64,000 bases of DNA, taken from NCBI GenBank assembly GCA_000381625.1, contig KB906767.1, forward strand, positions 845,729 through 909,728. The letters run 5' to 3'. Shown here in pieces: positions 26,980 through 44,644 of the stretch. Numbering within the stretch: position 1 is the stretch's first letter; every line of letters starts with the position of its first letter. The notes under the pieces were generated by a model, which saw only the letters and a program-made list of their open reading frames with translations, was not told where the DNA came from and did no database searches. The DNA comes from Bryobacterales bacterium KBS 96. GTDB lineage: Bacteria > Acidobacteriota > Terriglobia > Bryobacterales > Bryobacteraceae. A program made the translations under genes and the position numbers.

Positions 26980-28062
26980 ATGAACTACGGCTTCAATATT
27001 CGAAAAGACGGCGCGCTGGACTTTTTGTCCGTGGGCGCCCTGATTCACCGGCTCGATCCAGGAGTCATTCCATTTCGAAAGGCAACGGAATGCCAGATTC
27101 ATGTAAGCGGCGGTGAATTCAACGTCGCCGCGAATCTATCCGATTGCTTCCGCATGCAGACCGGCATTGCGACGGCAATGGTGAACTATCCCATCGGCGA
27201 TTTGATCGCGGAACGCGTGCGGGCGATGGGCGTGAAGCCCTTTTATAAGCATTTCGAGCACAATGGCGTGAATGGCCCGAATATGGCTACCGTTTACAGC
27301 GACCGGGGTCAGGGAGTGCGCGCTCCCGTCGTCTTCTACAACCGGTGCAACGAGGCGGGCGCGCTTTTGAAGCCGAGCGATTTCGATTGGAAGTCCATCT
27401 TCGCTTCTGGCGTGCGCTGGTTCCACAGCGGTGGAATTTTCGCCGCTCTTTCTGAAACCACGGCGGAGCTGATCATCGAAGGAATGAAAGCGGCCAAAGC
27501 CGCGGGGGCGATCGTCTCGTTCGATCTTAATTACCGCGAAAAGCTTTGGAAGATTTCCGGCGGCGCCGACAGGGCTCCCTCCGTCATCAGCCGCATTGTC
27601 GAGAACGTGGATGTGCTCGTGGGCAACGAGGAAGATTTGCAAAAGGGACTCGGCGTAAAAGGGCCGGAGGTAGTTTCCAAATCGAAACTCGACCCGACCA
27701 GCTTCTTCGGCATGATCGATGAGGCGGTGAAAAAGTATCCGCAAATCAAAGTGGTTGCGACGACGCTCCGCGAAGTCCACTCGACGAACCGGCATAGCTG
27801 GAGCGCGGTGACCTGGATCAACGGCCAAACGTACACGGCGCCCACGGCAGAACTGGATGTGCTCGATCGCGTGGGCGGCGGAGACGGATTCGCGGCAGGG
27901 CTCTTCTACGGCTTACTGACCGGTGAGTCGCCCGAGGAAGCGCTCAAACTTGGCTGGGCCCACGGGGCGCTGCTAACCACATTCCCAGGCGACACCACCA
28001 TGGCGACGCTGGAACAGGTTCGCGGTTTTGCAAAGGGCGGCTCGGCGCGTATTCAGCGCTAG
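26980..28062 (+). CDS. PfkB-family sugar kinase, probably 2-dehydro-3-deoxygluconokinase
   Basis: Ribokinase-fold kinase of 360 aa. PfkB motif 2 is the divergent form VGGGDGFAAG (catalytic Asp near 303), and motif 1 is GGEFNVAANL. The overall layout fits 2-keto-3-deoxygluconate kinase, and the gene follows gnd, which supports a role in sugar-acid breakdown (inference). A good GAGGAA lies 8-13 bases before the ATG. Ribokinase or fructokinase activity cannot be excluded. Confidence 0.8.
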   Translation: MNYGFNIRKDGALDFLSVGALIHRLDPGVIPFRKATECQIHVSGGEFNVAANLSDCFRMQTGIATAMVNYPIGDLIAERVRAMGVKPFYKHFEHNGVNGPNMATVYSDRGQGVRAPVVFYNRCNEAGALLKPSDFDWKSIFASGVRWFHSGGIFAALSETTAELIIEGMKAAKAAGAIVSFDLNYREKLWKISGGADRAPSVISRIVENVDVLVGNEEDLQKGLGVKGPEVVSKSKLDPTSFFGMIDEAVKKYPQIKVVATTLREVHSTNRHSWSAVTWINGQTYTAPTAELDVLDRVGGGDGFAAGLFYGLLTGESPEEALKLGWAHGALLTTFPGDTTMATLEQVRGFAKGGSARIQR

Positions 28063-28068
28063 CGGCAA

Positions 28069-28096
28069 AGCGGGCGCGGCATCCGCGTCCCTACAA
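28069..28096. repeat. Dispersed intergenic repeat, CCCTACA family, copy 3
   Basis: GGGCGCGG and CCGCGTCC flank CAT with one mismatch and are followed by CTACAAAG. The element sits between the convergent kinase gene and the unknown gene that ends at 28099, so it may also help stop transcription. Confidence 0.5.
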
Positions 28097-28098
28097 AG

Positions 28099-28752
28099 TT
28101 ATTTATAGAGCCGCCGTTTCACATCCGGCCAGAATTCGTTAAAGGCGTTGGAGGCCATTCGGCCCAGAAAGCCTTCTCCGATACGAACTATCGCGTGTTG
28201 GGCATCGCTTTCGCTCGGCGCGCGCCAGAGATTCGACAGAAAGTTGTTTCCCACGTCGGCGGCGTAGAACGAATAGTTGGGTCCCGTACTGCCGTCCGTT
28301 TTGTACGTGATAAACGTGAACTTCACGATGTGCAGCACACGCTGTCTGAAGGGCCGTCCTTGCGCGGAAAAATAACGCGGATCGTCCCCCAGAACCGCTC
28401 CCAGCCCTGCTTCGAGCGCATTTCCCACAGAGACGCCTGTCAGGCGCATGCCGTAGCGTTTGGCGAAGCCTTTCCAATTGGGACCATATTCCCGAGGCGA
28501 ATTGAATTCAGTTCCCCATGCGGAACTGATGACGCCGCCGGCTAGACTTGGGAAGCCGACTGTCGATTTCACAAACCAAGTGAATCGCTCTTCCGGTGTG
28601 AGCGGTTGATATTCGCCTGGCTGCGGACGGGCGGAGGCTGGATCGGCGGTGGATTGGGCGGGTTGGAATGCTGCGCCTTGAGCCGCCGCCGGGCAGGAGA
28701 GCAGGATAGCGGACACCAGACAGACAGCAGCGTAGGGCCTTTTAACTTTCAT
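28099..28752 (-). CDS. Exported protein of unknown function, acidobacterial type
   Basis: 217 aa, signal peptide (about 1-27, ending AAQG). The middle has 'ERFTWFVKSTVGFPSL' and 'LGDDPRYF', with few charged residues in the last 100 and a possible membrane-facing helix (SFYAADVGNNFLSNLW). No catalytic motif. I know similar small outer-envelope proteins only from Acidobacteria, by general recollection. It is the last gene on its strand before the deformylase. Confidence 0.65.
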   Translation of the reverse strand: MKVKRPYAAVCLVSAILLSCPAAAQGAAFQPAQSTADPASARPQPGEYQPLTPEERFTWFVKSTVGFPSLAGGVISSAWGTEFNSPREYGPNWKGFAKRYGMRLTGVSVGNALEAGLGAVLGDDPRYFSAQGRPFRQRVLHIVKFTFITYKTDGSTGPNYSFYAADVGNNFLSNLWRAPSESDAQHAIVRIGEGFLGRMASNAFNEFWPDVKRRLYK

Positions 28753-28800
28753 TTCGTGTTTTGGATCGGGTCGTTTTGGGTTGGGTCATTTTTGGCTGAA

Positions 28801-29388
28801 TCAAGGCGCCAGCAGGCTCTCCACTTCAGCGATCGTTTTATCTTTCCAGTACCGGTTCAGATGTTCCATGGTGGTGAACGTTCTTGGAAGCATCCGATCC
28901 AGGTAAAGGGCGCCGTTCAGATGATCGATTTCATGTTGCAGTATCCGGGCGTACCAACCATACGCCTGAATCTGTTTGGGTTCACCGAACCGGTCCAGGC
29001 AATCCACAACCACTTCCGCCGCTCTCGGGACAACCGCGGAAAATCCGGCCAGGCTGAGGCAACCCTCGAAGAAGGCGGCCGGCGCGCCATCCTTTAGCTG
29101 GATTTGCGGATTAATAATGACGTGGAAAGGGATAGGCTCGCGCTTCCGTTCGGCCAGAATTTCCGGCCTCAAGTCCCTCAGGTACTCCGCGCGATCTTCA
29201 ATGATCGCAAGCTGCAGCGAAATGCCGACCTGGGGAGCAGCCAATCCGACTCCCGGCGCGTCGCGCATGGTTTCGAGCATGAAATCAATCAATTGTTGAA
29301 TCTCGGCTCCGCGGATTTCCTCGTTCGAGAGGGCGCGAGCTTTCTGGCGTAGCACGGGATCGCCAACTTGTAGAATTTTTAACCGAAT
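28801..29388 (-). CDS. def: Peptide deformylase (apparent ATT start)
   Basis: Removes formyl groups from nascent proteins. All three motifs are present: GVGLAAPQVG, EGCLS and the metal-binding QHEIDH. No ATG, GTG or TTG lies at the natural start. A perfect AAGGAGG (29395-29401) is followed after six bases by ATT (29386-29388), in frame, giving 195 aa (I-R-L-K-I-L-Q-V-G-D, where family members read M...LxIxxxGDPVLR). In-frame ATG codons upstream, at 29565 and 29649, would add about 60-90 residues of unlikely sequence. I therefore call ATT as the start. Confidence 0.9.
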   Translation of the reverse strand: MRLKILQVGDPVLRQKARALSNEEIRGAEIQQLIDFMLETMRDAPGVGLAAPQVGISLQLAIIEDRAEYLRDLRPEILAERKREPIPFHVIINPQIQLKDGAPAAFFEGCLSLAGFSAVVPRAAEVVVDCLDRFGEPKQIQAYGWYARILQHEIDHLNGALYLDRMLPRTFTTMEHLNRYWKDKTIAEVESLLAP

Positions 29389-29828
29389 GGAGAGCCTCCT
29401 TATCGAAGTTTCCCATGGGAGCCGCGCTTGAAAGCCGCAATCGGTTCGATTCCGCGTTCTTCCAGCGCGGCTTTCGCCGCTTAGGGGCCGTTCATTTTCC
29501 CTGCGTAATGAAAAGCCGCAAGAAGAGTCACAGATTCGGAGTGGATCGTTGGATGGAACATCCATTCCTGTGAAGCCAGCGAAATAAAGAAGCAAGAGAT
29601 TCTCCTTCAATGCCACTGCGCAAGCTCTGGAGACCGGTAGGCCGCCCACGAGGTGTGGGAGTGAGAATGCAATAAACCTTCCGGGGCGCGATCAGTACGT
29701 TTGGTGTAACCGCTTGTTTTTTCTACCGTTACACTTCGTAGTTGCGGTAGCTGTGATTTCACGATAAGGTTTGTCTACGCGAGCATTCGCGGGCAGCCGC
29801 GAACGCCACGTTTGACTCGTGGTTGCGT
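29389..29828. other. Intergenic region, divergent
   Basis: 440 bases between the def start and the next gene on the plus strand. I see no gene with a credible start. An AAGGAGG for def is at 29395-29401. The promoters for both genes must lie here. Confidence 0.5.
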
Positions 29829-31112
29829 ATGCCTTTACGGGTGAGTAGTCGGCTCGGGTTTCGGATCTGGCGGGCTCGAAACATTGGACTCATGGGCGCC
29901 GCGGTTCTTCTCTTCCTGGGGACGGCGGAACTCGCGCGCTCGCAGATCAAAATAAAGCCCCAGTTTCCCGGCGAACCGGTCACAATCCTTCCTTCGGACG
30001 CGGAGATTCTTGCGTCTCCCGTCGAACGGAAGGATCTGCCATGCAGTGTGACTCCACGTAAGGCGGAGCTCGGATTCGATCTTCAATTTCACACGGGATT
30101 CGATGTCAACGTACCGCTGAGTGAATTAGACGGCGGCGATGACATGCTGACGATTGTATTCCGCGTGTACCCCGAAGGGCAAAAAGACAACTCCAGCTAT
30201 TTCGCGGAGCATATCACGGTGCCGACAATTGAAGAAAATGCCACGGGAGATGCTTTTCTCCAAGGATATTTCGATGTGGGCGAAGGGAACTACCATGTCG
30301 ACTGGCTGATGCGCGACCGGCAGGAACGTTTCTGTTCTGATAGCTGGGATACAGACGCCTCGCTGGCTCCGAAGGATAAGGAGATGCGGCTGTTCATCGC
30401 GCCGAAACAGATCAAAACAGCCCAGTTCGAGCCTTTTCAGGACGAACCCACGTTTCACCGCACCCCGCCGGGGGACGACCCCATTAATCTCAAGTTATTA
30501 GTCAATTTTGCCCCGGAAGCCAAGGATCAAGCGTCACTTCCCGCTGCCGACCTGGCGGCGTTGGTGGGTATTTTGAAGATGATCGAGCACGATCCCCGAG
30601 TGGGCCATGTCTCACTGGTCGCCTTCAACATGCAAGAACACCGTATTCTCTACCGGCAAGCGGCGGCGGACCGGATCAATTTCCCGGCACTCGGCCGTGC
30701 GCTGCAGACCATGAAACTCGGAACGGTAGGGGTAGGTACTCTTGGTGAGAAACATGGGGACACGGACTTTCTCGGAAATCTGATCGAAAAAGAGGTAGGT
30801 ACCGCAACGCACCCGGATGCGGTGGTTTTTGCCGGTCCCAAAGCCATGCTGGACGCCGATGTACCCCAGGACGACCTGAAACGCATCGGAGATATTGAAT
30901 GCCCCGTGTTCTACCTGAACTACAATCCCAATCCGCAGGCGGTCCCGTGGAGAGACTCCATCGGGCATGCGGTGAAGTTCTTCAAGGGCACCGAGTACAC
31001 AATTTCCCGTCCGCGGGATCTTTGGTTCGCGACAAGCGAGATGGTCACAAGAATCGTCCGTTCAAAACAATTGCACGCGGAAGGCACAGTCGCGGCGGCC
31101 GAATCGCGCTAA
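29829..31112 (+). CDS. Exported protein of unknown function
   Basis: About 427 aa from the ATG at 29829; a signal peptide is visible (residues about 20-40, GLMGAAVLLFLGTAELARSQ), so the ATG at 29892 may be used instead. The interior has a VWFA-like impression (DLAALVGILKMIE, then HVSLVAFNMQ, and a late FAGPKAMLDADV), but the metal-site DxSxS is missing. It belongs with exported acidobacterial proteins of unclear role. It is followed 19 bases later by a methyltransferase gene. Confidence 0.65.
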   Translation: MPLRVSSRLGFRIWRARNIGLMGAAVLLFLGTAELARSQIKIKPQFPGEPVTILPSDAEILASPVERKDLPCSVTPRKAELGFDLQFHTGFDVNVPLSELDGGDDMLTIVFRVYPEGQKDNSSYFAEHITVPTIEENATGDAFLQGYFDVGEGNYHVDWLMRDRQERFCSDSWDTDASLAPKDKEMRLFIAPKQIKTAQFEPFQDEPTFHRTPPGDDPINLKLLVNFAPEAKDQASLPAADLAALVGILKMIEHDPRVGHVSLVAFNMQEHRILYRQAAADRINFPALGRALQTMKLGTVGVGTLGEKHGDTDFLGNLIEKEVGTATHPDAVVFAGPKAMLDADVPQDDLKRIGDIECPVFYLNYNPNPQAVPWRDSIGHAVKFFKGTEYTISRPRDLWFATSEMVTRIVRSKQLHAEGTVAAAESR

Positions 31113-31131
31113 TCTGTAAAGTAATCAGGTT

Positions 31132-31716
31132 ATGTTGCTAAGGGTGATTCGGAAAGGGACGCCGTTATGGCTGTTGGTTTTCTGTCTATCGACAGCCGCG
31201 TTCGCGCAGCGCTATAAACCGGATTTTCGAAACCGGCTCGCGCCCTTCGTCAGTTCGCCGCAACGGGCGGTAGAAAAGATGCTGGAAATGGCGAACCTGA
31301 AGCCCGGAGAGACGCTTTACGATCTGGGCTGCGGGGACGGCCGGATTTTGATTGCCGCAGCCAAACGCTATCACGTAAAAGCTGTCGGGATAGAGATTTC
31401 GGACCGGCTTGCTAGAACGGCCGAAGATAACGTGAAATCGGACGGTCTCGAAGAGCAAGTGAAAATCATTCACGGCGATTTCATGCAAGCCGATCTTAGC
31501 GGCGCCGATGTGGTGACTCTTTACCTGATGACCGCCGCAAATGAGAAAGTACGGCCCGATTTGGAGAAGTACCTGAAGAAAGATGCGCGCGTCGTATCGT
31601 ATGATTACCCTATCCCCGGCTGGACGCCTGTAGACCAAGCGGAAACAGATCCCAGCCGGTATGGGAACCGGCACACGATCTATCTGTACCAGGTACCAAC
31701 CTCGTTCAAAAAGTAG
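31132..31716 (+). CDS. SAM-dependent methyltransferase domain with an N-terminal signal peptide
   Basis: 194 aa. Residues 10-27 (PLWLLVFCLSTAAFAQ) are a normal signal peptide, which is odd for an enzyme needing cytoplasmic SAM. The domain after it is a clean class I methyltransferase: YDLGCGDGRILIAA (motif I), VGIEIS (motif II), then DVVTLYLM. An internal ATG at residue 46-50 could give a cytoplasmic form lacking the leader. Follows the unknown exported gene and precedes a PfkB kinase closely. Substrate unknown. Confidence 0.75.
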   Translation: MLLRVIRKGTPLWLLVFCLSTAAFAQRYKPDFRNRLAPFVSSPQRAVEKMLEMANLKPGETLYDLGCGDGRILIAAAKRYHVKAVGIEISDRLARTAEDNVKSDGLEEQVKIIHGDFMQADLSGADVVTLYLMTAANEKVRPDLEKYLKKDARVVSYDYPIPGWTPVDQAETDPSRYGNRHTIYLYQVPTSFKK

Positions 31717-31722
31717 GCCCTG

Positions 31723-32733
31723 TTGAACCCCAGTTTCGATGTTCTTGGAATCGGTCTGAATGCGACCGACACTTTACTGCTGCTTCCTGAGTTTCCGCCA
31801 TATGCAGGCAAAATTGCTTTCAGCCAGGAGATCTTGAGCCCGGGCGGGCAAGTCGCCACCGCCATGGTTTCGTGTGCGCGGCTTGGGTTGCGGGCACGCT
31901 ATCTCGGCACCATCGGAGACGATTTACGCGGGAAGATCCAGCGCGAAAGCCTGGACGGAACGGGCGTTGACGTTTCCAGGCTGATTGTCAGAGAGGGCTG
32001 TCCGAATCAGACGGCCTACATTCTCATCGATCAGCGGTCGGGCGAGCGGACCGTGCTTTGGCAACGCCCGGATTGCCTCCGCCTGACCCCGGACGAAATC
32101 CAACAAGACGACATTGTCAGCGCCCGCATGCTGCATCTGGACGGCTACGATACAGCGGCGGCGGCGAAGGCCGCAGCCCTGGCGCGAGAGAACGGCATCC
32201 CGGTTTCGCTCGACGTCGATACTGTCTATCCGAATTTCGAGGCCGTACTGGCGAATGTCGATTACCTGGTTGCCAGTTCGGTCTGGCCAGGCCGGTGGAC
32301 GGGCGATGACGATCCGTTCACGGCCCTGGAGCGGATTCAGCGCGAATACGGCATGAAAGTCGCGGCCATGACTCTTGGCGAATACGGCGCCCTGGCGCTC
32401 TCCCACGGCAAATTCACTTATTCTCCGGCTTTTCGCGTTCATTGCGAGGACACCACGGCGGCCGGCGACGCGTTTCATGGCGGATTCTGTTACGCAATGC
32501 TGAAAGGCCTGCCGCTACGAGACGCTTTGGATTTTTCTAATGCCGCAGCCGCCCTGAACTGCACCGCTATCGGAGCCCGCGGACACATTGGGACTCTGCA
32601 AGAAGTGAGCGACTTAATAGCGCTTAGCGAGGCGGGCAAAGTGGAGCGGCACGTGAACCAGGAAATCGCCGTCCGAAGCCTATCCTGGAAACCCTCAAAG
32701 AAGCACGACGCGCTGTCGCATCGGGCGACCTGA
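31723..32733 (+). CDS. PfkB-family sugar kinase
   Basis: 336 aa ribokinase-fold kinase starting at TTG six bases after the previous stop. The catalytic loop DTTAAGDAFHGGF (about 243-255) is classic PfkB motif 2, and motif 1 is GGQVATAMVSCARLG. Closest in feel to ribokinase/sulfofructose-kinase-like members, but substrate cannot be told. Followed four bases later by the rhomboid protease gene, so they share a transcript. Confidence 0.85.
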   Translation: MNPSFDVLGIGLNATDTLLLLPEFPPYAGKIAFSQEILSPGGQVATAMVSCARLGLRARYLGTIGDDLRGKIQRESLDGTGVDVSRLIVREGCPNQTAYILIDQRSGERTVLWQRPDCLRLTPDEIQQDDIVSARMLHLDGYDTAAAAKAAALARENGIPVSLDVDTVYPNFEAVLANVDYLVASSVWPGRWTGDDDPFTALERIQREYGMKVAAMTLGEYGALALSHGKFTYSPAFRVHCEDTTAAGDAFHGGFCYAMLKGLPLRDALDFSNAAAALNCTAIGARGHIGTLQEVSDLIALSEAGKVERHVNQEIAVRSLSWKPSKKHDALSHRAT

Positions 32734-32737
32734 ACGC

Positions 32738-33409
32738 ATGATCCCGCTGCGAGCGCTTATCCGGATGCGTTCGTTTCCGGCGGTCACGCTGGCGTTGATC
32801 GTCGTAAACGCGCTGTGCTTTCTGTTCGAACTGACGCTGACTTCATACGGGCAGCACGTCGTGATCGAGCGTTATGCGCTAATCCCGAATCATCTCCACT
32901 TAAGCGCGCTCGTCACATCCATGTTCCTGCATGGCGGGTGGATGCACATCATCGGAAATATGTGGTTCCTGTGGGTGTTCGGATCGCGAGTTGAAGATGT
33001 GCTCGGACCGTTCAAGTACCTTTTTTACTACCTGTTCTGCGGCGTGATCGCGGCCATGGTGCATCTGGCGACGAATCTCGGCAGCCCCATCCCGACCATC
33101 GGAGCAAGCGGCGCCATCGCCGGAATCATGGGTGGGTTCCTGCTTCTTTATCCGCGCGCGCGGATCTTTACGCTGATCTTCGTCTTCATCTTTATCACCA
33201 CATTGGACATTCCAGCGGTGCTGCTGCTGGTCTACTGGTTTTTGCTGCAATTGTTCAGCGGGCTCTTCTCTTTTACGCACTCGGCGTTTACGACTGCGGG
33301 TAATAACGTCGCCTGGTTCGCACACGTCGGCGGGTTCCTGGCGGGCATGTTTCTCTTGTCGGTGTTCGGCGGACGCGGGCGGCGCTCGGCCTACGAATTC
33401 CGGCATTAG
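32738..33409 (+). CDS. Rhomboid-family intramembrane serine protease
   Basis: 223 aa, about six membrane helices. The catalytic dyad is S124 (IGASGAIAG) and H196 (AHVGGF), and the L1-loop/oxyanion residues HGGWMHIIGNMWFLW are present. It cleaves membrane proteins within or near the bilayer. The start ATG is four bases after the kinase stop. Confidence 0.93.
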   Translation: MIPLRALIRMRSFPAVTLALIVVNALCFLFELTLTSYGQHVVIERYALIPNHLHLSALVTSMFLHGGWMHIIGNMWFLWVFGSRVEDVLGPFKYLFYYLFCGVIAAMVHLATNLGSPIPTIGASGAIAGIMGGFLLLYPRARIFTLIFVFIFITTLDIPAVLLLVYWFLLQLFSGLFSFTHSAFTTAGNNVAWFAHVGGFLAGMFLLSVFGGRGRRSAYEFRH

Positions 33410-33489
33410 AGCGGTGCAGATTGAATCTTGCGCCGCGGGCCTTCGCTTTTCGCACGGCAGCCGGTCGATTCCCGATGTCCAAGTGTCCG

Positions 33490-33517
33490 CTTCCTTGCGG
33501 TCGCGGCGCAGTTCCGC
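33490..33517. repeat. Dispersed intergenic repeat, GCGGTCGCGG family, copy 1
   Basis: GTCCGCTTCCTTGCGGTCGCGG is nearly the same as GTCCGCTTCCTGACGGTCGCGG at about 43616. Both lie between genes. A shorter relative is near 25240. Such sequences are common between genes in Solibacter-type genomes, by recollection. Confidence 0.55.
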
Positions 33518-33597
33518 CCATCGGATGCCCCCTGTTACACTAAAAGGTTTCAAACCGCGCACAACATCCGTGCGCAATTACACGGAGTTATCACTGC

Positions 33598-34155
33598 ATG
33601 ATTGCCGCAACGCAAATCCGCCCAGGCATGGTGGTCAAGTTTAACAACGAGCTGCACTCAGTCTTCAGCATGGTCCACCGCACGCCGGGCAACCTCCGGG
33701 GCTTCGTTCAAGCCAAGATGCGCAACCTGCGCAGCGGCTCGATGATTGAGCACCGGTTCTCGTCGGAAGACAAAATCGAACGCGTTGCTCTCGATGAGCA
33801 GGAAATGGAATATCTGTACGACGATGGCGAAGATTATCACTTCATGAACACGGACACCTTCGAGCAGATGCACCTGACAAAGGATCTGCTGGGAGACAGC
33901 GTCAATTACCTTGTGGCGAACATGAAGGTGAACGTCGAATTCTACGAAGGGCGGGCTATCAGCGTGGAGCTTCCGGCCAGCGTAGAATTGACGGTTGCCG
34001 AAACGGAACCCGGCCTCAAGGGCTCGACGGTTTCGAATGTCACGAAGCCGGCGAAGCTCGAAACCGGACTGGTCGTTCAGGTTCCCGCGTTCATCAACGA
34101 AGGTGAGCGTATTCGCGTCAGCACGTCGGAAGGCACATACCTGGAGCGGGCATAG
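33598..34155 (+). CDS. efp: Elongation factor P
   Basis: Relieves ribosome stalling on proline runs. 185 aa with the three-beta-barrel layout (KOW-like N domain, then OB domains, ending [34 protein letters not shown]). The tip that normally carries a modified Lys/Arg (K34 in E. coli, R32 in Pseudomonas) reads P30-G31-N32-L33-R34. The residue at the modified position is Asn. So the usual EpmA or EarP target is absent here; Arg34 may take its place. GGAGTT lies about 10 bases before the ATG. Confidence 0.95.
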
Positions 34156-34196
34156 CCCCGATGCGCCGGAGTTTCCGGTAGTTCACCACCGGGCAA

Positions 34197-35483
34197 ATGC
34201 AAACCCGACGATTACTGCCGCTGCTTGCCGTATTGGCCTTTGTTGCCTATTTGCCGGTTCTCTCGTTCCCGTTCATCTCCGACAACTACACGGAAATTCC
34301 GTTATCCATCGGTTACGGGACCTGGCACGGCCTTTCGGCGCTGTTTGCAAACCCGGTATTTCATTTCCGGTTAAGCTACATCTTCGCGAACGCCTGGATC
34401 GCCAAGCTCTTCGGGTTCACGCCACATCCGTTTTATATCGCGAGCATCGTCTTTCACATCCTTTGCGTTTGTGTCGTGTGGGGCACGGGCGCCTGGCGAA
34501 AGGTTGGTTGGAAGGCGTCTACGTGGGCCGCTGGATTCTTCGCCGTATACGAAGGACACCAGGAAGCCGTAATGTGGCTGGCGGGATGGACCGAGATGTT
34601 TCTGGTTCTGTTCGGCGGAGGCTGCTTCGTTTGCTGGGTGCTCTGGCTTCAGGGCGGGCGGCGGTGGCTGTATGCTATCGCCTGCATTCTGTTCATCGCC
34701 GCGCTGTTCTCAAAAGAATCTTCATACATGTTCGCGCCGTTGTTACTGCTGCCGGTCGCCGCCGAGCCGAACCTCCGGCGGCGGGGCATTCGCGGCATCA
34801 TTCCATTTCTGGCAGGAACCGCGGTTTACGTGGGCTTCATCGCGCTGGGGCTGAGAACGAACCCGCGTTCGCAGGACGGCACCTTCGTCCTTTCGGCGAA
34901 TATGCCATGGCATCTGCTTAACAGCTTGGGCCACATGCTCTTCGTGTGGGGACTGCTGGCGCTGGCATTCCTGCTGATCCTGCGCGCCCGGGATACCTGG
35001 CGCATGGCCGCGATCAGCCTCGCCTGGATGGCGATTGCGCTAGTTCCCTACAGCTTTCTTACCTACATGAACCGTGTGCCCAGCCGCCAGACCTACGTGG
35101 CCAGCATCGGGCTCGCCTGGTTGGTCGGTATCGCGCTGACGAAGTTGGAGGAGCGTTTTTCGGTTCGCCCCGCCATCGCCGTCGCGTGCGTCATCGCCGG
35201 AGTGAATATCGGCATCCTATGGACAAAGAAGCGCCGCCAATACCTGGAGCGGGCACAACCCACCGAACTGCTGATTCAAGCTGTGCACAAGGCACACGGC
35301 GACATCCACCTCTCCTGCTTCCCCTACTCCCCTCTCATTGCCGGCGGAGCCGTTGAATACGCGCACGGACAACTGGTGCTTGATGGACCATCTGCACAGA
35401 TCGACAAGCCACACTGCTTGTCGTTTTCCTACAAAGATGCCTTCGGGGATGTCCACCAAACGACCGTGCACACCCCAATCTAA
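34197..35483 (+). CDS. Multipass membrane protein, GT-C glycosyltransferase-like
   Basis: 428 aa with about ten membrane helices and a hydrophilic C-terminus of about 70 residues outside. The first loop has a conserved-looking DNYTE acidic pair (after helix 1), where GT-C enzymes of the PMT/ArnT type carry the catalytic Asp. This is the only pointer to function and it is weak; oligosaccharide or lipid glycosylation is a guess. It follows efp by 41 bases and appears to be a separate unit. Confidence 0.6.
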   Translation: MQTRRLLPLLAVLAFVAYLPVLSFPFISDNYTEIPLSIGYGTWHGLSALFANPVFHFRLSYIFANAWIAKLFGFTPHPFYIASIVFHILCVCVVWGTGAWRKVGWKASTWAAGFFAVYEGHQEAVMWLAGWTEMFLVLFGGGCFVCWVLWLQGGRRWLYAIACILFIAALFSKESSYMFAPLLLLPVAAEPNLRRRGIRGIIPFLAGTAVYVGFIALGLRTNPRSQDGTFVLSANMPWHLLNSLGHMLFVWGLLALAFLLILRARDTWRMAAISLAWMAIALVPYSFLTYMNRVPSRQTYVASIGLAWLVGIALTKLEERFSVRPAIAVACVIAGVNIGILWTKKRRQYLERAQPTELLIQAVHKAHGDIHLSCFPYSPLIAGGAVEYAHGQLVLDGPSAQIDKPHCLSFSYKDAFGDVHQTTVHTPI

Positions 35484-35753
35484 GTGCAGCTGTTCGTAAA
35501 TACGAAGACGTATTGCGAGGCAACACTCCGATGAAGGCACCCGCCACTCCTTGACACTCACGGTCGGCGCAGGCCCATGTAATCATACGCAGTTGTCCGC
35601 TTATGCGGCCTGGCGGGGCCCTGTCGGTCCTGGCTGGGAATGAGCCGCGCGCATCGACAAGCGCTTTTGAGCTGCTCGTCGATTCGCTATCGTATTTAAG
35701 AAAATGCCGTTAAGTTTGCAGGAAGCCCGATCGAACTGAAAGGCTAGCAAGCC

Positions 35754-36203
35754 TTAGAAGAACTGTAGTACGCGTTCGAGCAGGGAGTCCCTCTTCGAGG
35801 AAATCCCGACGGCAACAGGTTCCTCCACGCCATCCTCCTTCAAGACGGCCGAGAGGTCCTCCTTGCCGGGCACTTCAAGGATGTCGAAAATCAGATTGGA
35901 CGGCAGAGAATCAAGAGAAACTTCGCGTCCATCGTCGAATACAAAGACATCCCGTTTCGGTTTGGTGAGCATCCGGAACACTACTTCAGCTTCCGGCGCG
36001 GTGTGTAACGTCACTTGCTGAACTTCGGAGTACCGGATAAGAACTCTCGTTTGGTCCAGCATGCAAACCGGCGTGGGCCGTGCATTGTGTAGATCCGATT
36101 CCCGCACGGCCCAGCTACAACCATGGACCTTACGGATTCCCAATCGCTGCCCAGCCTCAGCCTGTAGAATTTTGTCTGCGTGGGTGGCAGAATACCAGCA
36201 CAT
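35754..36203 (-). CDS. Unknown small protein with Cys-rich N-terminus
   Basis: 149 aa from the ATG at 36203, which has a perfect AGGAGG six bases upstream. The open frame extends farther upstream to 36437, but those 78 residues look like junk. The protein starts MCWYSATHADKILQAEAGQR and later has HNARPTPVCMLDQTRVLIR. I do not recognise a domain. A Cys-Trp-Tyr start and a second conserved-looking Cys may bind metal or be modified. It lies between a GT-C-like gene and the sigma-factor group. Confidence 0.7.
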   Translation of the reverse strand: MCWYSATHADKILQAEAGQRLGIRKVHGCSWAVRESDLHNARPTPVCMLDQTRVLIRYSEVQQVTLHTAPEAEVVFRMLTKPKRDVFVFDDGREVSLDSLPSNLIFDILEVPGKEDLSAVLKEDGVEEPVAVGISSKRDSLLERVLQFF

Positions 36204-36489
36204 TCTTGACCTCCTAACTTCCGGTCGAACAGTTAGCTGCTCTACCGACCCAAGTATGGAGCAAATCCGAACCACGAACAAGGGTGGAAATCGCTGGAAA
36301 TGTTTGGCGAAATCAGGCCGTTGCGATGCCGTCCAGTTCGCAGCACATGCGCACTGCCCCGTGCTCCAAAGGCCGACCACAACTGTAACGGAGAGGACAA
36401 AATAATGACCGGCTAATGTTTCCGTTAACATCTTCATGTAGTTTCCGTATTACCAGGCAGAGAACGTCAAAATCAGCCAAGAGGAAATC

Positions 36490-36945
36490 ATGCCTGAAGT
36501 AGTCGTCGCCATCATTTTCGGAGTGTTTGGGTGGATCGTATGGGTCATCACAACGAATATCCGCCGGAGTAAGACCGCCAGAGCCGTCGCCGATCTGCAC
36601 GCGAAGCTGCTCGATCGCTGCAGCAACAACAATGAGCTCTTGATGTACCTTGAAAGCGAATCCGGCCGGCGGTTTCTTGAGTCGGCCACAACGGGAGGGG
36701 GTACACCGCTTACGCGTATCCTGAACGCAGTTCAGGCCGGAGCCGTTTTGCTGTTGTTCGGCATCGCAATGGTGATCGTCCGTTTGGCGCTCCAGGATAC
36801 GGACGCGCAGAATGTATTGGTGGTCCTGGGCGCGGCGGCGCTGTCCATCGGGGCGGGGTTCCTGGTATCGGCGGCGATTTCTTACACGCTCTGCAAGTCG
36901 TGGGGAATATGGAGGCCCGGCGAAACGCTTCGCCAAACTACTTAA
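36490..36945 (+). CDS. Unknown membrane protein upstream of an ECF sigma factor
   Basis: 151 aa. One helix at the N-terminus (residues 3-22), a hydrophilic middle (about 23-75) with possible coiled coil, then two helices near the C-terminus (about 78-97 and 105-130). AGAGGAAAT precedes the ATG. It lies 30 bases before the likely sigma start and so may be co-transcribed with the sigma/anti-sigma pair. No known domain. Confidence 0.65.
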   Translation: MPEVVVAIIFGVFGWIVWVITTNIRRSKTARAVADLHAKLLDRCSNNNELLMYLESESGRRFLESATTGGGTPLTRILNAVQAGAVLLLFGIAMVIVRLALQDTDAQNVLVVLGAAALSIGAGFLVSAAISYTLCKSWGIWRPGETLRQTT

Positions 36946-36974
36946 GCGCAATCTCGCTCTCGACAGATGCGCGG

Positions 36975-37520
36975 ATGATCAACGCCGAAACGCAAACGGA
37001 ATTCGCAGCCTCCGCGGCGCGTCCGATGGATGAGGAGAGTTTCCAGCTCCTGTACCATCGCACGGCCACGCCGCTGCGGCGGTATCTGCGCAGGATACTA
37101 TCCGACCCGTCGTTCGCGGACGATCTATTACAGGAGAGTTACCTCCGGTTTTTAGGAGCTAAACTCAGCTCGGATATGTGCGAAGAGCATCAAAAAAATT
37201 ACCTGTTTCGGATCGCGACAAACCTGGTGCGGGATCATGCTTCGAAAAAGAAAGCAGAGCCGCTGCTCGGGGAAGCGAGTTCCCCTGAGAGGCTGGCCCA
37301 ACGCATCGACCGGCAGGAGGATCTGCGGCGTGTGATGGAAAAGATGAAGCCACGGGAGCGGCAGATTCTCTGGTTAGCTTACGTGGAGCAATTCGATCAT
37401 AATGAAATTGCGGCAATCGTCGGAGCCAAAGCCCAGAGCATTCGACCGATGCTGTGGAGGGCTCGCGCGAACTTGGCCGATATGCTTCGCGGCCTGGGAT
37501 TTCGGGAGGGAAAACCGTGA
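36975..37520 (+). CDS. ECF RNA polymerase sigma factor
   Basis: About 181 aa from the ATG at 36975 (alternatives: 36900 or 37026). Region 2 reads 'LYHRTATPLRRYLRRIL...FADDLLQESYLRFL' and region 4 'MKPRERQILWLAYVEQFDHNEIAAIVGAKAQSI'. It belongs to the ECF group. The stop overlaps the GTG start of the next gene, which has a zinc-binding anti-sigma motif, so this is a coupled sigma/anti-sigma unit. The signal is unknown. Confidence 0.9.
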   Translation: MINAETQTEFAASAARPMDEESFQLLYHRTATPLRRYLRRILSDPSFADDLLQESYLRFLGAKLSSDMCEEHQKNYLFRIATNLVRDHASKKKAEPLLGEASSPERLAQRIDRQEDLRRVMEKMKPRERQILWLAYVEQFDHNEIAAIVGAKAQSIRPMLWRARANLADMLRGLGFREGKP

Positions 37521-37963
37521 AAACGGAGGCAAACATTCTCCATTCGTGCGAATGGGAACCAGCGCTGGTATCCGCGTTGCAGCGGGGACATCTGCCTGAA
37601 GAAGTTTCGCGGCATGTAGCAAGTTGCCCAGCCTGCACCGATACCGCCATCGTGTGGGGTTATCTGCACGATGTCGAGCAAGATGCCGCCGATGCCGACC
37701 AACTTCCTGCCCCTGGCCTGATCTGGTGGCGGGCGCAACTGGCCGAGCGGCGTAAGCTCGCGAGCCGTTCCGTCGCTTCCATCCAAATCGTGCAGAATGC
37801 GGCTATCGCGCTCGCGGCGATTCTAGCCGTTACACTCCTGGCGCTCTACGCACAAACGTTCACTCAGATCCCTGCTCTGCTGCTGGAGGGCATTGCAGCG
37901 TGCTTCTTGTTTTCGCTGCCTGTCGCCGGACTTCTTTATTTCTGGGCGCGATCCGAACGGTAG
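37517..37963 (+). CDS. Zinc-binding anti-sigma factor, membrane-anchored
   Basis: 148 aa starting at the GTG that overlaps the sigma stop (GTGA). The ZAS motif is H33-x3-C37-x2-C40, with C11 and H9 as further possible ligands. Two C-terminal membrane helices (about 93-112 and 120-140) hold it in the membrane, with the ZAS domain in the cytoplasm. It is expected to hold the sigma factor until a redox or envelope signal releases it. Confidence 0.85.
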   Translation: MKTEANILHSCEWEPALVSALQRGHLPEEVSRHVASCPACTDTAIVWGYLHDVEQDAADADQLPAPGLIWWRAQLAERRKLASRSVASIQIVQNAAIALAAILAVTLLALYAQTFTQIPALLLEGIAACFLFSLPVAGLLYFWARSER

Positions 37964-37974
37964 ATTTTCACAAG

Positions 37975-38151
37975 CTATTCATCGTGCATGGCAGCCTGTA
38001 CTTTGCTGGCCAGCTCGGGAGGTATCTCGTCCATATTGTGCGCCGACTTCGCGTGTTCCGCGCATGCTTTCAGAACTTCCTGCTCAGTCTCCCCACGCGC
38101 TTCAAAATCGCAATCCACGCCGACTTCGCGGCACCGAACAACTTTAGGCAT
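37975..38151 (-). CDS. DUF1059 family small protein
   Basis: 58 aa on the minus strand with AGGAGG at 38159-38164, seven bases before the ATG. The pattern of the DUF1059 family is plain: C7 near the start, then GVDCDFEARGETEQEVLKA with C14, C27AEHA, and an ENMDEIP-like HNMDEIP. These short proteins with spaced Cys/His are found widely in Actinobacteria and Acidobacteria and have no known function. It is convergent with the anti-sigma gene. Confidence 0.85.
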   Translation of the reverse strand: MPKVVRCREVGVDCDFEARGETEQEVLKACAEHAKSAHNMDEIPPELASKVQAAMHDE

Positions 38152-38323
38152 CGTGCTGCCTCCTGGAAATGAATTATAAACTCATTAGCGCTGTTGTACA
38201 GGCGTCGTGCTAACACTCGCAGTACTGTATCGTATGGATGGATCGCGCACCCGAAAGCGACGAAAGATATTGAACCTGCGGCGGTCGAAGCATGCTTCGC
38301 CCCTATAACAAATAAGGGATTTC

Positions 38324-38350
38324 TGTGTAGGGGACGGGCGTCCCGACCCA
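38324..38350. repeat. Dispersed intergenic repeat, CCCTACA family, inverted copy
   Basis: Reads TGTAGGGGACGGGCGTCCCGAC; on the minus strand this gives GTCGGGACGCCCGTCCCCTACA, matching the other copies. GGGAC and GTCCC also make a small hairpin. It is in the 237-base gap between DUF1059 and the enolase-superfamily gene. Confidence 0.5.
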
Positions 38351-38388
38351 AGCCTTCAGAGAGCGGATTTACAATCCAACAAAACCCG

Positions 38389-39627
38389 TCACCAATTCGT
38401 AATCGAGCCGTCCGGACGGAAGTAGGTCTGCGCGCGATTCGTAACCGGCTCGGTGATTTCCGTCACCGGCTTCAGATACTTCATATCCAACTCCACGCCC
38501 AGCCCCGGGCGCTCATTCGGATATAGTTTGCCGTTTTTGAAATCCAGACATTGCGGAAGGTACGGCAGAGTCCGGCCCTGGTAGTTGTACTCCATCAGAA
38601 CGGGGCCCGAGAATGTGCCCAGTGAGTTGACCAGCGCGGCGGTTGCGATGGGCCCGGTGAAGTGGGGCACGATGCCGACAAAGTGCGTCTCGCAAATCGC
38701 TGCAATTTTCATCATCTCGGTGATGCCGCCGACATTAGGAAGCGTCGCGCGAATGTAATCGAGATCGTGGTTCTCGACGAGCCTGTTGAAGTCCCAGCGA
38801 TTGCCCCATTCCTCGCCGGCCGCCAGTGGCACATTCACCTTCTGCCGGAGAATGGGAATATCCTGCTGGAACGCCTCGGCGCGCACGGGGTCTTCAACGA
38901 AATAAGGCGCGAGACTTTCGATGAGATTGCATCCGCGAATTGCATCGGACAGATCGAAGCGCTGGTGGAAGTCGATACACCAGTCGCCATTCTTGCCGAC
39001 TCCTTCGCGGGCCTCGACACAGTCCTTGTAGACCTGATTGATTCGCTCGTGGGTGTTGAACGTCGTATTGGCCGGCGTGTCGGCCGCGCCCATGCGGAAA
39101 GCCCGGTAGCCTGCTTCCACGGTAATTCGTGCACGGTCCCGAATGCTCATGCCGCGTTCAATACCCGGTATGATGCCGGCCGTGTTATAGCACTCGCAGT
39201 GATCGCGCACCATGCCGCCGAGTACTTCGTGAACCGGCAACTTCAGGGCCTTGCCACGAATGTCCCACAGCGCGAGATCAAGCGCGCCGATGCCATCTGT
39301 TTTTTCCCGGCCGGCCGGATAGAAAAACGCGCGATTCATATCCTGCCACAGGCGTTCAATGTATTGCGGATCTTTGCCGATCAGCCGCCCAGCGGACTGC
39401 TTGAGCGTATCTCTTGAGCCGCCTTCCCCAATTCCGGTAATTCCGGCGTCGGTGTCAATCAGCACCACGAGGTCGCTCTGGTTGAATAACGGATTCGGAT
39501 GCGGCGGAGCAAAGACGCGAACCTTCGTGATCTTCATCTTCGGAAGCGCCGCCTGCAAACTCGGCGCGACCAAGGCGCCACCCACTGGTGCGACTGCTAA
39601 CGTCTTGAGAAACGACCTCCGGTTCAT
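38389..39627 (-). CDS. Tat-exported enolase-superfamily protein (D-galactonate/mandelate-racemase-like)
   Basis: 412 aa. GAGGAGG precedes the ATG. It has a strong twin-arginine signal (RRSFLKTLAV, residues 3-12), which is unusual because members act in the cytoplasm. The body has the capping domain (TGIGEGG..) and the TIM barrel with metal ligands D (WCIDFHQ), E (VEDPV) and E (AAGEEWG), and a late catalytic His (IVPHFTG). This set fits the acid-sugar dehydratase (D-galactonate type) subgroup. The substrate is likely a sugar acid in the periplasm. Confidence 0.85.
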   Translation of the reverse strand: MNRRSFLKTLAVAPVGGALVAPSLQAALPKMKITKVRVFAPPHPNPLFNQSDLVVLIDTDAGITGIGEGGSRDTLKQSAGRLIGKDPQYIERLWQDMNRAFFYPAGREKTDGIGALDLALWDIRGKALKLPVHEVLGGMVRDHCECYNTAGIIPGIERGMSIRDRARITVEAGYRAFRMGAADTPANTTFNTHERINQVYKDCVEAREGVGKNGDWCIDFHQRFDLSDAIRGCNLIESLAPYFVEDPVRAEAFQQDIPILRQKVNVPLAAGEEWGNRWDFNRLVENHDLDYIRATLPNVGGITEMMKIAAICETHFVGIVPHFTGPIATAALVNSLGTFSGPVLMEYNYQGRTLPYLPQCLDFKNGKLYPNERPGLGVELDMKYLKPVTEITEPVTNRAQTYFRPDGSITNW

Positions 39628-39722
39628 TCATCCTCCTCACAAATGTCCTACTGTACTTCAGCGGAGAAGATTATCAAAGCGATTTGTTGGCGCGGGGCGG
39701 TTCTTCGCCGGGAAAGCAGGAG

Positions 39723-40895
39723 TTATTTCACGATGCGAGCAAGGACCGGGCCGACTATTACGAGGAACAGGACGTAGGCCGCCGCGAACGATCCGAGTTC
39801 CGGTTGCAAAGTGGCTCCGAGGGCGGCGATTACCATCGAAAACTCGCCGCGCGCCACAAGAGTAGTCCCCGCCCGCCAGCGCGCGCTGCTATCGAAACCC
39901 GCTTGGGCCGCCGCAAAGTAGCCCGTGAGAATCTTGGTCAACGCCGTAACAATGCCCAAAACAATTGCAAGCGGCATCAATACGGGCAGCTTCGAAGGAT
40001 CGATCTGCAGTCCGAAGAAGAAGAAGAAAATGGCGGCAAACAAATCCCGAAGCGGCGCGAGCAACTGGTGCGCGCGCTCCGCTATAGGCCCCGAAAACGC
40101 GATGCCGACCAGGAACGCCCCAATCGCGGCCGAAACCTGCAGACTTTCCGCGACGCCGGCGACCAAAAGAACGGCCCCGAACGTGGTAAGCAGAATCACT
40201 TCGTCGGATTCGTGGAGCGCCCATGCGCTCAACTGCTTGCCGTAACGCAGCGCGATCGTCAGAATGAACAGAACCGCGCCGATCGCAATCGAAACGGAAA
40301 TGGCGATCTTCAGCTTCGTGCCGCCAATGAGAAGGACGGCCACAAGCGGCAGGTAAGCTGCCATGGCAAGGTCTTCCAAAACGAGGATCGACAGAATGGA
40401 GGGCGTCTCCGGGTTGCCCATCCGCTTCAATTCGGAAAGCACCTTGGCGATCACGCCGGAAGAGGAGATCCACGTCACTCCGCCGAGCAGCACGGCCGCC
40501 AGCGGATGCCAGCGCAAAATCAGTCCCATCACCAGGCCCGGCGTGAAGTTGAGCGCAAAATCGATAATGCCGGCGCCAATTCCGAATCGCAGATTGTGTT
40601 TCAATTCCTGGGCGGTGTACTCGAGTCCGAGCATGAACAACAGCAGCAAGACTCCGATCTCCGCGCCGACGTGAATGAAGCCTTCACTCACGGGGAGTGG
40701 AGCGATGCCGCCGTTACCGAAGGCAAGCCCGGCGAGCAAATACAGGGGAATAGCGGAAAAGCCGATGCGGTTGGCGAGACGGGCGAGTACTGCCAGCCCA
40801 ACCGTGGCCGCTCCTAACTCTATGAAAAATTCGGATCCCGGGGCTTGGGAAGGCATTTGCTTAGTCGAGGATAACAGGAAGAGCAAAAGCAGCAT
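39723..40895 (-). CDS. CPA2-family cation:proton antiporter (Kef-like membrane domain)
   Basis: About 390 aa, some 12-13 membrane helices. The start is uncertain: ATG at 40895, or ATG at 40856 (377 aa) with MPSQAPGSEF. The Na+/H+ exchanger domain has the segments GGxxWxSSSG (GGVTWISSSGVIAK) and SVSIAIGAVLF. Unlike KefB/KefC it has no C-terminal RCK/TrkA-N domain. It probably exchanges K+ or Na+ for H+. It is transcribed divergently from the GMC oxidoreductase. Confidence 0.88.
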   Translation of the reverse strand: MLLLLFLLSSTKQMPSQAPGSEFFIELGAATVGLAVLARLANRIGFSAIPLYLLAGLAFGNGGIAPLPVSEGFIHVGAEIGVLLLLFMLGLEYTAQELKHNLRFGIGAGIIDFALNFTPGLVMGLILRWHPLAAVLLGGVTWISSSGVIAKVLSELKRMGNPETPSILSILVLEDLAMAAYLPLVAVLLIGGTKLKIAISVSIAIGAVLFILTIALRYGKQLSAWALHESDEVILLTTFGAVLLVAGVAESLQVSAAIGAFLVGIAFSGPIAERAHQLLAPLRDLFAAIFFFFFGLQIDPSKLPVLMPLAIVLGIVTALTKILTGYFAAAQAGFDSSARWRAGTTLVARGEFSMVIAALGATLQPELGSFAAAYVLFLVIVGPVLARIVK

Positions 40896-41056
40896 TCCTT
40901 CATGCCGGAATGTTATTGGCGAAGTTGAGCACCGGCAATTCACCGCATTTTCCCTGCCAGCGCTCCGATTCGGGGCGCTGGCAGGGCGGTTCACGAGCGA
41001 TATCGCGCAAGCAAATTGCGAGCCCGATATTATAGATGTTTCGAACTGAACAGAAC

Positions 41057-42769
41057 ATGGCACAGGTGAAAGCAAGTCCGAAGACGTATGACGTCGTGAT
41101 TGTCGGCTCGGGGGCAGGTGGCGGTGTCGCCGCGCAAGTGCTCGCGAACGCCGGCGCAAAGATCTGCATGCTAGAGGCAGGAGCGTGGTTCGATTGCACA
41201 AAGCAATCCGACATGTTCGGCTGGCCCTATGATGCTCCGCATCGCGCGGCGTCAACGCACGAAAAGCCGTTCGGCTATTTCGATGCAACGCTGCTCGGCG
41301 GATGGGAAGTGCCCGGCGAACCATACACCAACGCCGCGGGCTCGGATTGGATGTGGTGGCGCGCGCGCATGCTCGGAGGCCGCACCAATCACTACGGACG
41401 CATCTCGCTCCGCATGGGGCCGTACGATTTTAAGCCATATAGCCGCGACGGTAAGGGCTTCGACTGGCCCATTACGTATGACGATCTCGCGCCGTACTAC
41501 GACAAAGCCGAGGAACTGATCGGCGTATTCGGATCACATGAAGGCCTGGAAAATACGCCCGACGGAAAATTTCTGCCGGCCCCGGCGCCGCGCGGCTACG
41601 AAAAAGTAGTGAAAGCCGCGAGCGATAAGCTCAACATCCCTTGTATTCCCTCGCGCCTGGCAATTCTGACGCGGTCCATTCATGGAAGGCCGGCCTGCCA
41701 CTATTGCGCGCAGTGCGGGCGGTCTTGTGGCGTGAACGCGAATTTTAACTCGCCCGGCGTGCACATCTTCCCCGCGATGAAGACCGGTAATCTCGAGGTC
41801 CGCAGCAATGCCATGGCCCGCGAAGTCCTGGTTGGCCCGGACGGCATGGCGCGCGGCGTCTCCTACGTCGACAAGACCACGCGGAAGGAAGTCTCGGTAT
41901 ACGGCAAGATCGTTGTGCTGGCCGCGAGCTGCTGCGAGACGGCGCGAATCATGCTCAATTCGAAGAGCAATCAGTTTCCGAATGGCATCGCCAACTCGAC
42001 GGGACTAGTGGGCCGCTACATCATGGACACGGTCGGGTCCGCGGTCAGCGGATTTTTCCCGATTATGCAGGATCTGCCACCGGAGAATGAAGATGGCGTT
42101 GGCGGTATGCATATGTACATGCCGTGGTGGCTTTACAAAGAACAGAAAGCCAACAAGATGCCGTTTGCGCGCGGCTACCACATCGAGTTTGGCGGTGGGC
42201 GCCACCAGCCGGGCGCCGGCGTACTCAGCGGCTCCGAACGTCTACTCGGCGGTGGCTATGGCGCGGAATTGAAGCAGAATCTGCGTAAAATCTACGGGGC
42301 GCACGTCGGCTTCTCAGGCCGCGGCGAAATGATTCCAAATGACGACAGTTACTGCGAAATCGACCCCAACACGGTCGATCAGTGGGGCATCCCGGTGCTT
42401 CGCTTCCACTTCAAATGGAGCGACGACGAACTTCTGCAGGCGAAACACATGCAGGAGACGTTCAAGGAAATTATTGAAACGGCAGGCGGCGTGGTGACGA
42501 ACAGCCACGGACCGGAGAAGCGGTGGGGCATTTCAAACGGCGGTCAGATTATTCACGAAGTCGGCGCAACCAAGATGGGCGCCGATCCGAAGACCTCGGT
42601 GCTGAATCAGTATTGCCAGGCGTGGGATTGCAAGAATCTCTTCATCACCGATGCGGCTCCGTTCGTCAGCAACGCCGATAAGAACCCGACGCTGACCATC
42701 AGCGCGCTCGGGTGGCGCACATCGGAGTACATTGCCGATCAAGTGAAGAAGCTGAACGTGAAGGTATAG
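41057..42769 (+). CDS. GMC-family FAD-dependent sugar/alcohol dehydrogenase with a Cys cluster
   Basis: About 570 aa; I prefer the ATG at 41057 (family members start MAxxx...YDVVIVGSG), though ATG 41036 is possible. FAD-binding VGSGAGGGVAAQVLANAGAKICMLEAG is near the N-terminus. C-terminal GMC residues include HEVGATKMG and ADKNPTLTISALGWRTSE. C214-x2-C217-x2-C220-x3-C224 (HYCAQCGRSC) suggests an iron-sulfur cluster, as in some bacterial FAD glucose dehydrogenases (inference). No signal peptide is seen; the partner downstream has a Tat signal and may carry it out. Confidence 0.9.
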   Translation: MAQVKASPKTYDVVIVGSGAGGGVAAQVLANAGAKICMLEAGAWFDCTKQSDMFGWPYDAPHRAASTHEKPFGYFDATLLGGWEVPGEPYTNAAGSDWMWWRARMLGGRTNHYGRISLRMGPYDFKPYSRDGKGFDWPITYDDLAPYYDKAEELIGVFGSHEGLENTPDGKFLPAPAPRGYEKVVKAASDKLNIPCIPSRLAILTRSIHGRPACHYCAQCGRSCGVNANFNSPGVHIFPAMKTGNLEVRSNAMAREVLVGPDGMARGVSYVDKTTRKEVSVYGKIVVLAASCCETARIMLNSKSNQFPNGIANSTGLVGRYIMDTVGSAVSGFFPIMQDLPPENEDGVGGMHMYMPWWLYKEQKANKMPFARGYHIEFGGGRHQPGAGVLSGSERLLGGGYGAELKQNLRKIYGAHVGFSGRGEMIPNDDSYCEIDPNTVDQWGIPVLRFHFKWSDDELLQAKHMQETFKEIIETAGGVVTNSHGPEKRWGISNGGQIIHEVGATKMGADPKTSVLNQYCQAWDCKNLFITDAAPFVSNADKNPTLTISALGWRTSEYIADQVKKLNVKV

Positions 42770-42785
42770 CGGAAAGGAACAAGTG

Positions 42786-43502
42786 ATGGCCGACAATCAA
42801 GAAGATATTCGCGAAAAAACAGGCGGAGTGAGCCGCCGCAATCTGTTCCAGGTGCTCGGCGCCGCCGTGCCGGTGGCTGCCGTGTTAACCGGACGACCGG
42901 TTTATGCCGAGTTGGGCGAACACCACGCGCACTTGCCGATGGCCGCTGCCGCGCGCGCCATCCCCAGTGGTCCGTATACGCGCCAGACCTTCGACGACCA
43001 GCAGTGGCGTACAGTCAGCGTGTTGTGCGATCTAATTATTCCCGCCGACGACCGTAGCGGCAGCGCCACGCAAGCGAAAGTGCCGGAGTTTATCGACGAT
43101 TGGATCGCGTTCCGCAAACAGCAGGACGGCAACGAGAACCTGCAGGCGCTGATTTTCGGCGGCCTGATGTGGCTGGACCGGGAATCGAACGAGAAATTCG
43201 AAAAGCCATTTGCGGATGCCTCGCCCGACCAGCAGAAGCGACTGCTCGACCGCGTCGCTTATCCGGAGAAAGCCGCCAAGGAGGACCACGCCTGGGTGCG
43301 GTTCTTTAATGAATTCCGCGATCTCACGGTGAGCGGGTTCTTTTCGAGCAAGATGGGTGTCGCCGATCTGCCATATCTCGGCAACACGGCTGTTGCCGAA
43401 TGGAAAGGCTGCGACCCGAAAGTGTGGGCCGTTATTGAAGAACGCATGAAGAACGGCTATAAGGGCGTAGCTGGTCCCGCAGTTAAGCCCTGGAGCGCGT
43501 AG
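42786..43502 (+). CDS. Gluconate 2-dehydrogenase subunit 3-like (Tat-exported small subunit)
   Basis: 238 aa; ATG 42786 preceded by AAGGA (GTG at 42783 also possible). The Tat signal SRRNLFQVLGAAVPVAAVL is followed by the subunit-3 domain (YTRQTFDDQQWRTVSVLCDLIIPADDRSGSATQAKVPEFIDDWI). In known systems this subunit guides export and maturation of the GMC subunit; the pair here is 16 bases apart. A cytochrome subunit is not present in the window. Confidence 0.9.
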   Translation: MADNQEDIREKTGGVSRRNLFQVLGAAVPVAAVLTGRPVYAELGEHHAHLPMAAAARAIPSGPYTRQTFDDQQWRTVSVLCDLIIPADDRSGSATQAKVPEFIDDWIAFRKQQDGNENLQALIFGGLMWLDRESNEKFEKPFADASPDQQKRLLDRVAYPEKAAKEDHAWVRFFNEFRDLTVSGFFSSKMGVADLPYLGNTAVAEWKGCDPKVWAVIEERMKNGYKGVAGPAVKPWSA

Positions 43503-43844
43503 CCAGAAAAGCAAATCGGAACGGCCGGAGGCGGGACCGGCTTAAGACGCTGGGAAATTGCGACCGTAGGCAATCGGCGCCGGTTCTCGGCCTGAAGACG
43601 GCGGCTCCGTTGAAGGCGTCCGCTTCCTGACGGTCGCGGCTCAGTACAGAGGTCCTGCTGTTTTTGCCACGCACTTAGATCGGGGCTCGACGCAATCCTT
43701 GAAAGCACTGATCTAGGGTTGGTCCGAGCACGTTGCCCCTATTAGGCCAGCACCGAACCGCCACGGTAAGGGAGCGGACTGCCAGGCTGCTCGCCACGCT
43801 GGCAAAACGAGGCGCTGGTGATTTCCGGAAAGCGGCCATCCGGC
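43503..43844. other. Intergenic region with dispersed repeat
   Basis: 342 bases between the subunit-3 gene and the convergent PhzF gene. No gene is seen. It contains the GCGGTCGCGG-family repeat at about 43616-43643 (GTCCGCTTCCTGACGGTCGCGG). Confidence 0.5.
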
Positions 43845-44636: not shown

Positions 44637-44644
44637 AGTCTATT

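Follow-up and report, generated by a model that had tools for sequence, protein, structure and literature searches.

Where does translation begin in a gene whose conserved frame opens on neither ATG, GTG nor TTG? The question is raised by a gene, here called def2, on the minus strand of a 64,000-nucleotide stretch of DNA from a soil bacterium, Bryobacterales bacterium KBS 96 (the window; source genome G000, 6.69 Mb in 2 contigs). A first-pass annotation had described it as a peptide deformylase gene, and this identification is upheld by profile scores above the curated thresholds for Pfam PF01327 (154 bits, cut-off 22.8) and the NCBIfam model TIGR00079 (117.4 bits, cut-off 103.95). The frame comprises 195 codons, with its stop codon at 28803-28801, and the translation contains GVGLAAPQ, EGCLS and HEIDH, corresponding to GxGLAAPQ, EGCLS and HExDH, which we take to be the metal-site motifs of peptide deformylase. 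In a sequence search against solved structures the best matches were PDF1A enzymes (1zxz, 170 bits; 4je6, 163; 3g5k, 135); the next-ranked chain, which bears just the name peptide deformylase, reached 101 bits. G000 encodes another deformylase outside the window, which adjoins a gene that we judge from its sequence to be, presumably, methionyl-tRNA formyltransferase (fmt). Given this fmt-adjoining copy, we consider the window gene to be a second, accessory deformylase; since the fmt-linked copy starts at ATG, general deformylation need not depend on def2. Comparison with the orthologue in genome G001 (dN 0.081, dS 1.087; NG86, 189 codons; dN/dS about 0.07) indicates that the def2 protein is nonetheless maintained by purifying selection. 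Among other relatives, the def2 of G050 (L006, L080) is interrupted in frame by TAA after codon 34, beyond which the remainder still aligns, and is apparently a broken copy.

Table 1. Features of the def2 locus, in window coordinates.
Feature	Position	Strand	Basis
217-aa protein, no Pfam family, 48 bases after def2	28099..28752	-	Frame; Pfam search
def2, second peptide deformylase gene (PDF1A-like), ATT to stop TGA	28801..29388	-	Frame; profile scores; dN/dS against G001
Putative ATT initiation codon of def2	29386..29388	-	Same codon in G001 and G128, both without a canonical in-frame start
In-frame upstream extension (GTG 29649, ATG 29565)	29389..29649	-	Non-coding in sister species: stop, and gap not a multiple of 3
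Shine-Dalgarno AAGGAGG, 6-base spacer, -10.7 kcal/mol with G000 anti-Shine-Dalgarno	29395..29401	-	Sequence; pairing energy

The first-pass annotation had placed the start of def2 at the ATT six bases after AAGGAGG, remarking that the protein start aligns there and that no ATG, GTG or TTG fits. Each of these points was borne out: the arrangement is present on the minus strand, with CTCTCC as the spacer between AAGGAGG (29401-29395) and ATT, and the ATT aligns with the ATG, GTG or TTG start codons of relatives. Upstream canonical starts in frame lie at least 59 codons away (ATG, 59 codons up; GTG, 87 codons up, a codon that had been given as ATG), with none closer. The only other in-frame candidate is a GTG at codon 12, use of which would delete a conserved QVG motif (Q7, V8 and G9, invariant in 6/6 aligned sequences). 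The predicted start of def2 translation at ATT is, on the strength of these comparisons and those with relatives described below, well supported.

Two relatives share the codon. The window's genus is represented by one further genome among those searched, G001, in which the def2 protein is 85% identical and ATT occupies the aligned position; reading upstream in frame, a TAG comes 12 codons before it, and no ATG, GTG or TTG occurs between that stop and the conserved core. The contig of the G001 locus (L004) corresponds to public record JAICLJ010000081.1 (L033). G128 belongs to another genus of the same family (def2 identity 67%; locus L113, public record JAFAYL010000057.1, L034) and also has ATT at the aligned codon, with an in-frame TGA 10 codons up and a canonical start absent, a CTG at codon 3 being a conceivable alternative start. 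The public records of these two loci come from differently named metagenome bins. A sequence error behind the ATT was rejected, three different genomes carrying it.

The genomic contexts of these loci also differ. The window and G001 both place def2 divergently to a gene of 429 aa and ahead of the 217-aa gene, whose ATG in G001 overlaps the def2 stop (ATGA). In G128, def2 sits 23 bases after a different gene, for which the only matches among the loci compared are in G128 itself, and the three window neighbours tested find no match around def2 there; ATT is therefore found in two unrelated neighbourhoods. An Rfam search of 28000-30200 gave 0 matches at E up to 1, and so no known leader RNA element, and a sigma-70 promoter scan found 0 promoters. 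We also observed that a CCATGGGAAACTTCGATAAGG block (window 29396-29416) is identical in the window and G001 despite the diverged, gapped leader around it; the block overlaps the Shine-Dalgarno sequence and may be a leader element.

A wider survey covered 170 def2-type loci, reduced to 122 distinct ones on the basis of 30 bases upstream and 27 downstream, and drew on the best 80 of 466 confirmed contig matches together with searches of relatives, the family (52 genomes out of 237 at E <= 1e-50) and the class (56 out of 399 at E <= 1e-60); every listed survey row but the fragment G201:C78 was examined. Among the 122 distinct matches listed, the aligned codon is canonical in 101 (ATG 76, GTG 16, TTG 9), and a further 18 have another codon at the aligned site and a canonical start within 20 codons, with ATT in none of the 18. 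The three without a canonical start within 20 codons all have ATT and represent two genera (3/3 lacking a nearby canonical start against 0/18 with a displaced one; Fisher p = 7.5e-4). The conservation across Bryobacterales for which the first-pass annotation had proposed looking did not emerge: with ATT in only 3 of the 122 distinct matches listed, the ATT start is not general in the family as judged by these alignments. Even within the genus of G128, ATT occurs in G128 alone among 16 members with starts listed. On a tree of 100 of the 101 then-distinct rows (omitting the G050 copy with a premature stop), a single origin of ATT in G000/G001 and G128 gave an AU test p = 0.22, and the tree fits one or two origins. 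Between the window and G001, 37 of 79 four-fold sites differ, such that an unconstrained triplet would persist by chance in roughly 15% of cases; retention of ATT in G000/G001 alone is therefore weak evidence of selection. The recurrence of the codon in G128 strengthens the case for putative selection on ATT.

The sequence preceding the codon provides a further line of evidence. The 16S tail of G000 ends GGATCACCTCCTTT, making AAGGAGG a full Shine-Dalgarno sequence, in keeping with its earlier description as perfect. G001 has AAGGGGG where the window has AAGGAGG, and in G128 a GAGGGG lies seven bases ahead of ATT. With energies of all loci computed against the 16S tail of G000, pairing reaches -10.7 kcal/mol in the window, -10.3 in G001 and -7.0 in G128, versus a median of -3.9 for the 101 matches listed with a canonical start at the aligned codon. 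Only 1, 1 and 12 of those 101, respectively, have as strong or stronger a Shine-Dalgarno sequence (p = 0.004), a contrast that weakens to p = 0.017 when the two sister species are counted once (80 canonical loci). The best reading of this pattern is one of compensation, in which ATT genes would combine a weak start with a strong Shine-Dalgarno sequence, as PMC5622118 reports for GUG and UUG starts and PMC13009471 for the AUU and AUA starts of S. aureus. Many def2 relatives have no clear Shine-Dalgarno sequence, and in some (L077, L090 and L062 are among those noted) a TANNNT-like hexamer stands just ahead of the start; the transcripts may be leaderless.

Other genes were examined as controls. 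Of 18 ORF pairs kept across the block common to the window and G001 (window 28099-46870), def2 alone has a member in which neither the beginning of the aligned part nor the next 15 or so codons offer a canonical start; this is our reading of a table, and several of these pairs may prove to be spurious antisense frames. In each of the 19 fmt-type def loci scanned, a canonical start lies no more than 8 codons from the aligned core. L032 of G015 has ACC where 17 of the 19 have ATG or GTG, and the canonical start nearest to its aligned core is a GTG 8 codons up. For infC, the start is an ATG at the same position, and the single canonical in-frame start, in 11/11 loci from 12 genomes searched, G000, G001 and G128 among them, from which it follows that feedback of the E. 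coli infC type is not present in that form. Autoregulation through the ATT of infC had been offered as a precedent for def2; with an infC-type loop rejected on these grounds, the analogy is weaker than it looked.

The complement of tRNAs was also considered. Three G-C pairs in the anticodon stem are a hallmark of initiator tRNA, and among the tRNAs called in G000 (L210-L259, all but one of 73 Rfam matches) there is one initiator-like tRNA, with anticodon CAT; the remaining match lies in the window and is a tRNA-Ser. A special initiator tRNA for AUU was rejected accordingly among those called. Two features outside the window were recorded in passing: about two dozen tRNA matches within some 7.4 kb (G000:C1:2134900-2142600, L240), resembling a tRNA array of mobile elements, and three consecutive partial 16S rRNA-like matches on the minus strand (G000:C1:780822-781234), separate from the full 16S at 5074019.

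Taken together, we consider it likely that def2 is a functional gene translated from AUU with the ordinary initiator tRNA, its strong Shine-Dalgarno sequence compensating for the start codon and its low yield limiting expression. The AUU would be read by initiator tRNA(fMet), while the near-perfect Shine-Dalgarno sequence would hold the 30S subunit on the message and offset the poor codon-anticodon match; the outcome would be a low yield of protein, with AUU most likely acting as the limiter of expression and IF3 as a proofreader, not necessarily a signal. The gene, the position of its predicted AUU, the strong Shine-Dalgarno sequence and purifying selection are supported by the sequence evidence above, and we infer from other bacteria that IF3 would discriminate against AUU and that the yield may be around one tenth of what AUG would give.

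The first-pass annotation had gone further, suggesting that def2 may be controlled by initiation-factor levels. In other bacteria IF3 discriminates against start codons of the AUU type; in principle, the output of def2 should thus vary with IF3, and by analogy such control is physically plausible. That the level or fidelity of IF3 serves as a physiological signal, raising def2 translation when IF3 activity falls and tying deformylase supply to initiation, is nevertheless improbable: the recurrence of ATT in two genera and the repression of non-canonical starts by IF3 in E. coli and Streptomyces, as described in PMC5472188, speak for it, and the ATG starts of both infC and the fmt-linked def speak against it. 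Slightly less probable again is the broader proposition that control of peptide deformylase by IF3 via AUU, with initiation fidelity setting def2 supply in Bryobacteraceae, has arisen twice in different genera. A weak start that limits expression is a simpler reading than control of def2 by initiation factors.

We regard as comparably doubtful the view that ATT arose from ATG by a slightly harmful mutation, which drift has let persist because a second deformylase is dispensable. The two codons are one substitution apart, G000 has its other deformylase, and at least one relative (G050) carries a premature stop in def2, all of which this account would accommodate; the low dN/dS argues against it, as does the occurrence in two genera of ATT and no other codons, with a strong Shine-Dalgarno sequence each time.

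Translation from the upstream ATG or GTG, which would extend the protein by a leader of 59 or 87 residues, is very improbable. It draws on the fact that the def2 frame of the window is open for 101 codons upstream of ATT, and the first-pass annotation had named these two positions as places where the true start might map. The relatives do not allow their use: the frames are closed in both G001 (TAG) and G128 (TGA), which rules the two starts out, and the upstream alignment of the window with G001 is interrupted by three gaps (10, 18 and 3 bases), the first of a length not divisible by three. Another conceivable route is initiation at the out-of-frame ATG in the block that the window and G001 share, with a +1 shift then bringing ribosomes into the def2 frame. 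The identity of ATGGGAAACTTCGATAAGG in both genus members would suit it, as would the ability of a Shine-Dalgarno-like element inside a frame to stimulate shifting, seen in prfB. We rejected this programmed event as equally remote on the grounds that the ATG block is not conserved before the start in G128, that peptide conservation ends after six codons (a by-eye reading of the window/G001 alignment) and that no slow codon or stop was seen, again by eye, at a shift site.

Initiation at AUU with compensation by a strong Shine-Dalgarno sequence can be set beside a small number of known systems. Conserved bacterial AUU starts are documented for very few genes, and def2 would add a translation-related member found in two genera, as well as a clear case in which to ask whether genes other than infC and sigR are tuned by IF3; annotation may misplace its start or call a truncated gene. 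Our literature search of open-licence PMC full text found no paper on a deformylase with an AUU or other non-canonical start. The closest solved sequences to the def2 protein, plant and animal PDF1A (1zxz, 4je6, 3g5k), differ in belonging to organellar deformylases with transit peptides and ordinary starts. E. coli pcnB is like def2 in having an AUU outside infC that apparently limits expression, and unlike it in encoding poly(A) polymerase and in that the effect was shown by experiment in pcnB, the def2 case being built from sequence. Binns and Masters reportedly found in 2002 that the AUU start of pcnB is translationally limited. E. coli infC likewise pairs an AUU initiation codon with a role in the translation apparatus, and differs in that it encodes IF3 itself, creating a loop; def2 encodes no initiation factor. 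PMC9410913 counts two E. coli genes starting at AUU, infC and pcnB, and PMC5622118 reports a single switch to AUU among 61,358 ancestral AUG starts surveyed and stronger Shine-Dalgarno conservation with GUG and UUG starts. Streptomyces sigR, as presented in PMC5472188, resembles def2 in its non-canonical start, extensive ribosome-binding site and conservation within one genus only, as well as in an annotation misled by an upstream canonical start and an ATGA overlap with the next gene (seen for def2 in G001); unlike def2, it starts at GTC, encodes a sigma factor and has been shown to be repressed by IF3. In S. aureus, according to PMC13009471, cvfC1 (AUU) and ccpN (AUA) share with def2 a non-canonical start joined to a strong Shine-Dalgarno sequence, conserved there, with cvfC1 yielding about 10% of the AUG level; these genes encode unrelated proteins in a Gram-positive organism, and theirs are starts mapped by ribosome profiling with the yield measured.
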